In this document: positions 2,841 to 12,718 of the stretch, piece by piece
Layout of the letters: each line of letters begins with the position of its first letter
Numbering within the stretch: the first letter of the stretch is position 1
Assembly (NCBI GenBank): GCA_012514355.1
Contig: JAAZAL010000055.1
Span: forward strand, 1 to 12,718
DNA: 12,718 nucleotides
Direction of reading: 5' to 3'
From: Candidatus Dojkabacteria bacterium
GTDB lineage: Bacteria; Patescibacteriota; Dojkabacteria; SC72
Position numbers and translations under genes: made by a program
Notes under the pieces: generated by a model
What the model was told of the DNA's origin: nothing
The model's input: only the letters and a program-made list of their open reading frames with translations
Database searches by the model: none

Positions 2841-3872
2841 ATGGGCTACTCATTTTGTATGGCTTCCAACTCATTTTCTATAGATTTCGAAGGAGGTGAT
2901 CAGGTAGGCAAGGGAGATGCAGTTAAAAATTTCTCTCTTCATTTATCCTCTCTTGGATATCCAGTTTCCGTTATTTCTTTCCCATATTATTCAACCCCAT
3001 TAGGATTTTTAATTAGGCAAATTCTGTTAAATGGTTTTGATGATTCAACTCATATTGATACTAAAAGGATTTTAGATATTAAGATGGCTCTTTTTGCACT
3101 GAATAGGTTGGAAATATTAAATTGTATTCTTTCTTTAAAACAACGATATATTTACCTCTTTGATAGGGGTCCTTTCAGTAATGCTTTAACTATTTCTTAC
3201 CATCTTTTTTCTCAAGGATGCGATTTCCAAAGATGTGAAGAGTATGTAAATACAGCAATTAATTTAGATTCATTTTTTCTAAAAAGTTTAAATATTAACA
3301 ACTGTGTTATACGTTTGAAATACTGTGATATTGATTGGGAGAAGAGTAGAAAAGGAGATATAAGTGATCTGTATGAAAGAAAAGAGGTTCAAGATATCAG
3401 TGAGTATGTTTACACTATTTTTGAAAAAAGTGTAGGAAAAGGATGGGTCAATATCACAACAAAGGATAGGAATGGGTGGAGAGAAAGAGAAGAAATTAGA
3501 GAGGAGTGTATGAGATTTGTTTTAAATAGAGGGCTTTTAGATAGTATTCAGAAGAAGAAGGTTAAGAGGATAAAGTATTTGGGTATTGGAGATATACAAA
3601 AATCTTTGTATCTGGGCTGTGATATTTCTAATAGATTAAAAAGAGAATGGAGGGATGCAATTGGGACAAATAACAAGAAGAAGGTGTACACAGTAGCAGA
3701 AAGTATTTCGCAGGCCTTTGTGGTCACTACAGAGTCTGTAAGTTGGTGTAATGAAGAGATTGCATTGGAAGTAGGGCATTTCTTTAGGGAGTATCCCGAA
3801 ATATCTGATATTATTAAGAATAAATATGGGAAAGAATTCCTAACAAAATTTCTTAAAAGGGTAAAGATATGA
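2841..3872 (+). CDS. tmk: Thymidylate-kinase-like P-loop protein with C-terminal extension
   Basis: The N-terminal part resembles dTMP kinase, which phosphorylates dTMP to dTDP in the cytoplasm. Residues 14-24 read IDFEGGDQVGK, corresponding to the family's P-loop FEGxDGxGKT. The usual final Thr/Ser and its neighbour are replaced by Gly-Asp. LFDRG (residues 106-110) matches the DR(Y) nucleotide-binding motif, and WEKSRKGDISDLYER (166-180) lies where the lid is expected. The usual family length is about 205-215 residues. Here about 115 extra residues follow residue 228; I do not recognise this helical, Lys-rich extension. No Shine-Dalgarno precedes ATG 2841, and ATG 2859 (Met7, MASNSF) is an equally possible start. 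The TGA stop overlaps the nth start (ATGA), indicating one transcript. The substitution pattern may mean a different nucleoside or nucleotide substrate, so the symbol is provisional. Confidence 0.75.
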   Translation: MGYSFCMASNSFSIDFEGGDQVGKGDAVKNFSLHLSSLGYPVSVISFPYYSTPLGFLIRQILLNGFDDSTHIDTKRILDIKMALFALNRLEILNCILSLKQRYIYLFDRGPFSNALTISYHLFSQGCDFQRCEEYVNTAINLDSFFLKSLNINNCVIRLKYCDIDWEKSRKGDISDLYERKEVQDISEYVYTIFEKSVGKGWVNITTKDRNGWREREEIREECMRFVLNRGLLDSIQKKKVKRIKYLGIGDIQKSLYLGCDISNRLKREWRDAIGTNNKKKVYTVAESISQAFVVTTESVSWCNEEIALEVGHFFREYPEISDIIKNKYGKEFLTKFLKRVKI

Positions 3873-4464: not shown

Positions 4465-5208
4465 ATGTTTAGTGAAACTCAGGGAGGTGACCCAGCTAAT
4501 ACAGCAAATTTCCAATTCGACGGTTTAGAAATGGATCCCTTGCTTTCTCAGTTTGCTAAATCTACTGAAAAAGAGAGTCTTTTAAACGATCCTCTTTCGA
4601 TTTATGTTACCGATAAAGTAAGGCATGAGCCTTATCTAGGTCGTGCTAATAGGGAGGACTGCTCAATGTTATTTCCTTATCAACAAAAAAAAGAGCAGGC
4701 TACTTTATGGACCTCTGCAAAGCTTCGAACAAGGAGAGATTGTTCTTTTATGGCCTCAATAGTTAACCCTGCTCTTGTAGATGATATAGAAAAAAGAAAA
4801 AAAAGTGATAGAAGTGATGGTATTAATAGGGGATTAGCAGTACAGTATAAACCTACAACATCCGCAAAGGATACTTTAGGAACTGCAATTCAAAGGGTCG
4901 ACCACGTCTTGCTTGATACTTTCTCTGTAATGCTTCCAATTGAAGGCAAAGAAGAAGAAATGCAACTTTATGTAATTCAGAAACACAAAGTTGTCTCTGG
5001 GTTAGGTGATAACAAGGAAGAGATATTAAAACTAACAGTTAAAAGAAAGAATCCAAGAACAGATAGTTTTCAGGATTTTAAAAAATTTGACCAAGTCCCA
5101 GATAAATTCCTTTCTGTTTCTCAATTTGATTCCATTATCAATAAAAGTAAGGGAGTAATAGAAAAGAGATTAAGAGAAGATTCTCAGAGAAGAAGGACTT
5201 CGCAATAA
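4465..5208 (+). CDS. Hypothetical protein, unrecognised
   Basis: A 247-residue soluble protein of no family I recognise. It has no signal peptide or membrane segment. The N-terminus (1-60) is acidic and polar. The middle (65-110) is Cys- and Arg-containing, including NREDCSMLFPYQQKK and LRTRRDCSF. A part likely rich in beta strands (145-190) includes TFSVMLPIEGKEEEMQLYVIQKHK. The C-terminus is strongly basic and charged (RLREDSQRRR). The ATG is 2 bp after the nth stop, so it is probably the last gene of the kinase-nth transcript. There is no Shine-Dalgarno upstream, but an unused-looking GGAGGTGA lies just inside the gene (4483-4490). Codon use resembles that of its neighbours. Its position suggests, without proof, a role linked to DNA or nucleotide metabolism. 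Confidence 0.75.
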   Translation: MFSETQGGDPANTANFQFDGLEMDPLLSQFAKSTEKESLLNDPLSIYVTDKVRHEPYLGRANREDCSMLFPYQQKKEQATLWTSAKLRTRRDCSFMASIVNPALVDDIEKRKKSDRSDGINRGLAVQYKPTTSAKDTLGTAIQRVDHVLLDTFSVMLPIEGKEEEMQLYVIQKHKVVSGLGDNKEEILKLTVKRKNPRTDSFQDFKKFDQVPDKFLSVSQFDSIINKSKGVIEKRLREDSQRRRTSQ

Positions 5209-5300: not shown

Positions 5301-5795
5301 ATGGTAAACACAAAAAAAGTTGATACAGAGATTAAAGACAAGTCTTTGTACTCAGAGTTAGATAGTTTCCTAGAAGATAGTGCACATAAGATAAAACAAC
5401 TCTCAAGAGGAGATATTGTTGAAGGAGAGGTTGTTGATATTAATAATGGCGTCGTTATCGTAGATGTTGGCTTTAAGTCAGAGGGTATTATCGCAGGTAG
5501 AGAACTAAAATCTGATACGCTTGATTGGACTCAACTTAAGGTTGGAGACAAGGTGTTAGTATATGTTGTAAAACCAGAAGATGATAAAGGTCAGTTAGTT
5601 CTCTCAATTAGAAGGACTCAACAGGCAAGTGCATGGTTAAGTTTGGAGAATGCTAAAAAGAATAACGAAGTAGTAGACGCTGTTGTTGTTGAATCTAATA
5701 ACGGAGGATTAATTGTTGAGATTGGTAAAGGTATTAGAGGCTTTATTCCTACATCCCAATTAGATGCTACAAGAGTGTATGCTAACGGAGTATGA
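5301..5795 (+). CDS. rpsA: Ribosomal protein S1, N-terminal part up to in-frame TGA
   Basis: S1 binds mRNA on the 30S subunit and helps start translation, which matters in a genome with few Shine-Dalgarno sequences. S1/OB domain 1 spans about residues 36-105 (RGDIVEGEVVDINNGVVIVDVGFKSEGII). Domain 2 begins near 122 (NEVVDAVVVESNNGGLIVEIGKGIRGFIPTSQL). The frame meets TGA at codon 165, inside domain 2, straight after ANGV. Without interruption the same frame continues to a TAG at 6531-6533, giving a four-domain protein of 410 codons. The sequence after TGA (QVGKDISSKVQKRLNSLIGEGIKTRIIELDREKNRIILSEK) is a normal end of an S1 domain. So this is one gene with a single nonsense codon, not two natural genes. 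Trp is encoded by TGG here, and other genes have no internal TGA. Confidence 0.85.
   Translation: MVNTKKVDTEIKDKSLYSELDSFLEDSAHKIKQLSRGDIVEGEVVDINNGVVIVDVGFKSEGIIAGRELKSDTLDWTQLKVGDKVLVYVVKPEDDKGQLVLSIRRTQQASAWLSLENAKKNNEVVDAVVVESNNGGLIVEIGKGIRGFIPTSQLDATRVYANGV
5793..5795 (+). other. rpsA: In-frame TGA at codon 165 of the S1 gene
   Basis: Reading frame 5301-6533 has one stop, TGA, followed by C (UGA-C), a context known to favour readthrough in bacteria. No frame change is needed to continue. The only other TGA in a coding frame is the normal stop of the kinase gene, so a genome-wide TGA reassignment is unlikely. The options are a real nonsense mutation, a sequencing or assembly error, or readthrough. 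Confidence 0.9.
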
Positions 5796-5918
5796 CAGGT
5801 TGGTAAAGATATTTCATCTAAAGTTCAGAAGAGATTAAACTCATTAATAGGTGAGGGTATTAAGACTAGAATAATTGAATTAGATAGGGAAAAGAACAGA
5901 ATAATACTTTCCGAAAAG

Positions 5919-6533
5919 ATGGTTACCCAAGCTAGAGATTTAGAGAAGAGAGCAGCTACACTAAAAAAGGTAAAAGAGGGAGATGTTTTAGAGGGTACAG
6001 TAAGTGGTATTACTCCTTTTGGTATTTTTGTTAACGCTCAAGGTTTGGAGGGATTAGTTCATCTTTCCGAGCTTTCTTGGGATAAAGTTGAGGATATTGG
6101 TGCAATTTACACTGTAGGAAATTCTGTTAAAGTTGTTGTAATTGGTCTTTCTGATGGAGGAAAGAGAGTAGCATACAGTGTTAAAAGATTACAGCAAGAT
6201 CCTTGGTCTCAAGCAATTTCTAAGTTTAAGATTGGAGATGTTGTTGATGGTGTAGTTCAAAAGGTTGTTCCTTACGGTGCTTTTATCAGAATTGGAGAGG
6301 GTTTAAATGGTTTAATTCATATCTCTGAGCTTTCTGATAAGTTAGTTAAAAATCCTGAAGATATTGTTAAGGTAGGACAGGAGGTTAAGGTTAAGATACT
6401 TTCCATATCTTCTACTGAAAGACACCTAGGATTAAGTCTAAAGGCTTCTTCAGAAGTTTCTTCTCAAAAGAAGTTAAACAAGGAGGAGTTAGCAGAGGCA
6501 ATTGATGAGGCAATAGATTTAGAGATTAAATAG
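5919..6533 (+). CDS. rpsA: Ribosomal protein S1, C-terminal part after in-frame TGA
   Basis: This is the continuation of the S1 reading frame, starting at the first possible start codon after the TGA (Met207 of the full frame). Two complete S1 domains follow. Domain 3 includes EGDVLEGTVSGITPFGIFVN and LEGLVHLSELSWDKV. Domain 4 includes IGDVVDGVVQKVVPYGAFIR and LNGLIHISELSDKLV and ends near LGLSLKASS. An acidic tail finishes the protein. No Shine-Dalgarno or promoter precedes Met207, and residues 166-206 between the TGA and this ATG are coding-like. Independent expression is therefore doubtful; more likely this belongs to a 410-residue S1 protein. The gene ends with TAG 18 bp before a terminator. 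Confidence 0.8.
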   Translation: MVTQARDLEKRAATLKKVKEGDVLEGTVSGITPFGIFVNAQGLEGLVHLSELSWDKVEDIGAIYTVGNSVKVVVIGLSDGGKRVAYSVKRLQQDPWSQAISKFKIGDVVDGVVQKVVPYGAFIRIGEGLNGLIHISELSDKLVKNPEDIVKVGQEVKVKILSISSTERHLGLSLKASSEVSSQKKLNKEELAEAIDEAIDLEIK

Positions 6534-12165: not shown

Positions 12166-12194
12166 AGAAAATAGATTAATATTCCTTGTATACA

Positions 12195-12718
12195 ATGGAG
12201 AGAAGTAATCATAAACAAAAAATATCAGGTTTGAGTTTCAGAGATCTTTCATTAGTTAGTGAAGATAATGAGGAGTATATACTTCTTGATAGTGATATCT
12301 CAGATGAGAGAGATTTAAGCAGAATAAGAAGATGGTTTAGGTTTCTAACAAGGAGATACAACTCTAATAAAGGTTTTTTTGCTTTCATAGTTGATTTAGG
12401 TGAGTATGTCTTTTCTAGACTAAGAGTTATTTGGATTTTAATATCCGTTATATTCGAGATATTTTTTAAGTCCTTTGATACTGTAAAAAATCAGATAGTA
12501 AAGAAAATGTTCTGGGGAAGGGGTTCTTTTCTTAAGTATGTTGTTCAGATTGCTTTTATGATTTTAGCTGTAATATTAAGCATCTCATATATCTATAGGA
12601 CTCCTACTATTATTAATGCAAATGAAGAGGATCTAGACTATATATCTGTTGCTGAGACGGATGTCTTGGCAATGAATGCAACATTGAACACCTCTATTCC
12701 TAAGGATAGAGAGGAGAG
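12195..12718 (+). CDS. Membrane-anchored protein, N-terminal part (runs off window)
   Basis: The open frame from ATG 12195 to the window end gives 174 complete codons without a stop. The start reads MERSNHKQKISGLSFRDLSL. The first 75 residues are charged and presumably cytoplasmic. Residues 77-91 (RVIWILISVIFEIFF) are hydrophobic, possibly amphipathic or membrane-lying. A clear membrane segment follows at about 113-134 (FLKYVVQIAFMILAVILSISYIY), then a polar, probably external part (RTPTIINANEEDLDYISVAETDV). There is no cleavable signal peptide, so a single-pass or hairpin anchor is likely. In candidate-phylum bacteria such N-termini are often found on cell-envelope proteins, for example M23-type peptidases, but the diagnostic domain would be beyond the window and I cannot confirm it. 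No Shine-Dalgarno precedes the ATG. Confidence 0.75.
   Translation, partial: MERSNHKQKISGLSFRDLSLVSEDNEEYILLDSDISDERDLSRIRRWFRFLTRRYNSNKGFFAFIVDLGEYVFSRLRVIWILISVIFEIFFKSFDTVKNQIVKKMFWGRGSFLKYVVQIAFMILAVILSISYIYRTPTIINANEEDLDYISVAETDVLAMNATLNTSIPKDREE

Follow-up and report, generated by a model that had tools for sequence, protein, structure and literature searches.

The ribosomal protein S1 gene of a Candidatus Dojkabacteria genome was interrupted by a single in-frame TGA, which was probably a one-codon sequencing, consensus or assembly error at a conserved arginine position of an otherwise ordinary S1 gene, in an organism using the standard genetic code. Arginine was found at this position in otherwise identical copies of the protein, release factor 2 was present in the genome, and TGA ended long reading frames. 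The TGA very probably reflects either an artefact or a private mutation, and no novel decoding; of the two, an error is the more likely from the sequence comparisons.

The DNA analysed (the window, 12,718 nucleotides) was the entire contig C58 of a 688,760-base genome in 151 contigs. Part of a 23S rRNA and a 5S rRNA were located ahead of the protein genes, which were ordered thymidylate-kinase-like, endonuclease III-like, an unassigned frame, S1, ClpC-like, RadA-like and rho (the names nth, clpC and radA are our reading of Pfam matches). The features of the S1 region were:

5301..6533, + strand: ribosomal protein S1 gene with four S1 domains and one in-frame TGA (from the frame, the Pfam S1 model and intact 410-aa relatives)
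5301..5795, + strand: upstream open frame of 164 aa, covering S1 domain 1 plus roughly half of domain 2
5661..5912, + strand: S1 domain 2, which holds the TGA (Pfam S1 model)
5793..5795, + strand: in-frame TGA, codon 165, with arginine in the relatives examined (sequence and alignments)
5919..6533, + strand: downstream open frame of 204 aa from the first ATG after the stop, with S1 domains 3 and 4

As originally predicted, the frame 5301–6533 contained one TGA at codon 165, in the middle of domain 2, with C as the next base and no shift of frame. The TGA was followed by CAG, and the frame continued to a TAG at 6531–6533. Four consecutive matches to the Pfam S1 model, the mark by which an S1 protein was recognized, were obtained in this one frame (5406–5612, 5661–5912 with the TGA inside, 5967–6185 and 6222–6443), and an intact copy, P0001, likewise showed four such stretches. 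A second S1 gene was not found in the genome; one other S1-domain match fell on contig C25, in a distinct frame of 717 codons.

The closest named relatives by S1 were Candidatus Dojkabacteria UBA2222, UBA2259 and HGW-Dojkabacteria-1 (87–91% protein identity). The window gene resembled the S1 of Dojkabacteria (WS6) in its length, its four S1 domains and its neighbours, an endonuclease III-like gene before it and ClpC-like, RadA-like and rho genes after it being common to the relative loci L089, L090 and L091, but it alone had an in-frame TGA at codon 165. Five of the six other closed window genes aligned almost end to end with relatives, the exception being the frame 4465–5208, and no independent mark of poor quality was seen elsewhere on the contig. 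The frame 4465–5208 (247 aa), between the endonuclease III-like gene and S1, had no Pfam match; it looks like an insertion, since no tblastn match at E 1 or better was obtained in 36 loci (L089–L124) and only ~110 bases separated its two neighbours in L089. The thymidylate-kinase-like gene (2841–3872, 343 aa) matched its Pfam model over residues 16–164 only and, at 42–50% in its four best matches, was less conserved than the genes downstream. Another frame (12186–12716, 177 aa), also lacking a Pfam match, ran off the end of the window.

The S1 frame, with X at the stop, was searched against a 5.8-billion-protein collection. The 7,999 candidates sharing most words were scored; 971 of them matched at E 1e-100 or better, and the best 120 of these were listed. 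The collection holds no internal stops by construction, so these numbers cannot show how often the TGA allele occurs. P0001 was the same as the window frame at all 409 other residues and had arginine at 165. Its longest contig was 8,424 bases, against 12,718 bases for the window contig, indicating that it came from another contig. Seven further full-length proteins (P0002–P0008), 98.5–99.5% identical with 2 to 6 differences including the stop, all had arginine at 165. Thus the residue at codon 165 of close homologues, which the original prediction had proposed to check, was arginine in all eight near-identical full-length copies, which together represented 33 contigs according to the listing. 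When 136 proteins were aligned (the best 120 of the 971 and all 16 from a second protein search), 126 had arginine at 165, nine fell short of the site and one (P0131) had methionine in a diverged tail. TGA at position 165 was seen in this contig only, and in none of the copies compared.

Four broken or partial S1 copies were also encountered. P0121 (178 residues, from a 4,436-base contig) was identical to the window frame through residue 164, had arginine at 165 and left the S1 frame after residue 166; to judge from its sequence, it appears to have been broken differently, by something like a frameshift, in a separate assembly of this species or one very close to it, and a break of this type would suit errors better than a maintained device. 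P0187 (114 residues, 97%) was a C-terminal piece whose contig was also 4,436 bases. P0159 (158 residues, 99%) was a C-terminal piece starting at residue 253, on a contig of 6,837 bases, and may simply be cut by the contig end. These three copies probably represent errors or contig ends in other assemblies. The fourth, P0137 (204 residues, 12,718-base contig), was the window's own downstream product.

The DNA of 57 relatives was read in six frames, a reading in which stops would be visible; 48 of them gave a long S1 match and nine did not. An arginine codon stood at position 165 in all 29 loci taken as the best of those 48 (AGA in 18, AGG in nine, CGA in one and CGT in one), and none of the 48 genomes had a TGA listed within its S1 match. 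Recurrence of the TGA in related genomes, another check raised by the original prediction, was therefore not borne out. TAA or TAG was listed in the S1 row of five relatives, and the one examined (L035) had no stop inside the alignment. Named loci of 67–91% identity, largely from the same genomes as the 29-locus set, had arginine at 165 in 28 of 28 cases; at eight distant named loci the position was a gap in seven and glutamine in one. AGA was the commonest arginine codon in the window genes (90 of 155).

Residue differences before and after the stop were 17 of 164 and 17 of 244 for L089, 18 of 164 and 20 of 243 for L091, and 24 of 164 and 26 of 243 for L090. The part after the stop was as conserved as the part before it, which argues that there was no long decay. 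Decay as a pseudogene was rejected on this ground, yet a recent mutation would leave no decay either. A genuine nonsense mutation carried by part or all of the strain's cells, that is, a recent and probably harmful variant caught in the consensus, is the main rival to an error and is itself unlikely. Its product would be a 164-residue fragment, perhaps with a separately started 204-residue C-terminal half. A single codon change would be enough for it, both flanks are otherwise conserved as they would be after a recent mutation, and the contig is otherwise clean; against it, this is the only S1 gene found in the genome, an otherwise identical copy has arginine, and by our reading no clear Shine-Dalgarno sequence precedes the restart ATG at 5919. 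In these data, a nonsense mutation newly arisen in a single strain would have the same appearance as an error. A sequencing, consensus or assembly error is preferred because the change was isolated and confined to one contig, and fell at an arginine position of a gene that was found only once, while an intact and otherwise identical copy exists elsewhere. By such an error in a single contig of this fragmented metagenome-assembled genome, one codon would have been altered at a conserved arginine position of an ordinary Dojkabacteria S1 gene; the organism's actual S1 would be a normal 410-residue protein, and UGA would be read as a stop by release factor 2.

In Gracilibacteria and Absconditabacteria UGA is recoded to glycine, according to PMC8629427, the consulted passages of which do not name Dojkabacteria, WS6 or Patescibacteria. 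The S1 case is comparable in that the bacterium is small and uncultured and the UGA lies within a conserved gene, but here one such codon was found, at an arginine position, release factor 2 was kept, TGA served as a terminator, and no tRNA with a UCA anticodon was found. The release factor 2 gene (prfB), for which a search had been suggested, was found as two pieces without internal stops: C8:4034–4831, covering model positions 2–270 on a contig ending at 4832, and C1:3813–4004, covering positions 290–353 on a contig ending at 4012. prfB was the best match for both (306 bits against 163 for prfA for one piece, and 75.8 bits with no other family for the other); each was below the family cut-off of 370 bits, as expected of fragments, and a separate complete gene on C87 passed the prfA cut-off. 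From these matches, release factor 2 is judged to be present, its gene being divided over the ends of two contigs. Because each piece is under the curated cut-off, the gene might be scored as missing in an automatic search.

No UCA anticodon was present among 32 tRNAs (31 Rfam matches and one more by ARAGORN), a set that is incomplete and by itself weak evidence; the UGA-decoding tRNA proposed for searching was thus not recovered. The tRNA-Trp had the anticodon CCA. A tRNA-Trp with a four-pair anticodon stem, an idea prompted by the abstract opening of PMC13092985, was rejected, as five anticodon-stem pairs, the top one G-U, were drawn by ARAGORN. The tRNA-Arg(TCT) that reads AGA was not found in the tRNA set of this genome; it was present in both same-genus genomes looked at, and its absence here is probably an assembly gap.

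Stops were scanned in a sample of 20 of the 151 contigs (158,033 of 688,760 bases, 23%), chosen for tRNA, release-factor or S1-domain matches. Among 101 stop-to-stop frames of at least 200 codons, TAA ended 71, TAG 20 and TGA 10. When stops were sought that had 50 or more stop-free codons with coding-like codon usage on either side, three places emerged. At two of these a start codon followed the stop in second or third position, the pattern of an ordinary gene end, leaving the S1 TGA as the sole interior case in the 158-kb sample. Within the window, the statement that other intact genes lack internal TGA held for six closed genes (2,477 codons, with no TGA and 17 TGG), and the kinase-like gene did terminate with TGA (3870–3872), overlapping the next ATG at 3869.

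Since release factor 2 was present, 10 of the 101 long frames ended in TGA and no other interior TGA was seen in the sample, UGA most likely acts as a normal stop here, read by release factor 2. The signs of a recoded UGA, namely loss of release factor 2, frequent UGA in genes together with its disuse as a terminator, and a tRNA with a UCA anticodon, were not found. Recoding to glycine or tryptophan was rejected, since the close relatives examined have arginine at the position and the genetic code appears standard; the judgement that a glycine code of the Gracilibacteria/SR1 type or a tryptophan code of the Mycoplasma type was unlikely therefore stands. A genome-wide reassignment of UGA to glycine, tryptophan or arginine, for which the recoding known in Absconditabacteria and Gracilibacteria offers a precedent, is barely credible here: it would have to accommodate release factor 2, the TGA-ended frames, the lack of further interior TGA in the sample, and tRNAs that include no UCA anticodon and a tRNA-Trp with CCA and a five-pair stem. 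With an incomplete tRNA set and a stop scan of 23% of the genome, the evidence against recoding is strong though short of complete.

A C after UGA is a leaky stop context. The S1 TGA has such a context, and the frame is unbroken past it, which speaks for programmed or leaky readthrough giving a short and a full-length S1; such readthrough is nevertheless extremely doubtful. The eight near-identical copies have arginine and not a stop, as do the relatives examined, so the stop is not conserved with coding sequence on both sides as a programmed readthrough site would be, and no TGA was listed in the 48 long S1 matches. The fold after the stop was not unusual: in the 101 bases from the TGA on, z was 0.40 and 129 of 200 shuffles folded at least as well. 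A selenocysteine or structured readthrough element was rejected on this account. Release factor 2 is present, and one long frame among the sample's 101 likewise ends in the TGAC context. Of the two readings offered by the original prediction, a point error or mutation agrees with the arginine at 165 in the otherwise identical P0001, and two S1 forms made by readthrough gained no supporting evidence. A real allele maintained in part of the population beside cells with the intact gene, and leading to a truncated S1, a split S1 or some limited readthrough, is very improbable. In the titles and abstract openings of the literature searched, nothing was found on UGA codons within the S1 genes of Dojkabacteria.

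Isolated in-frame stops occur in metagenome-assembled genomes through sequence error or minor alleles. The window TGA resembles these in being single and non-recurring, and in lying within a conserved gene of which near-identical copies elsewhere are intact; an error is deduced here from sequence comparison. Before recoding or readthrough is invoked for a single stop of this kind in a metagenome-assembled genome, the stop should be compared with near-identical copies and with the way the genome itself uses stops. A real and maintained TGA allele would bear on the need for a full-length S1 in such small bacteria.
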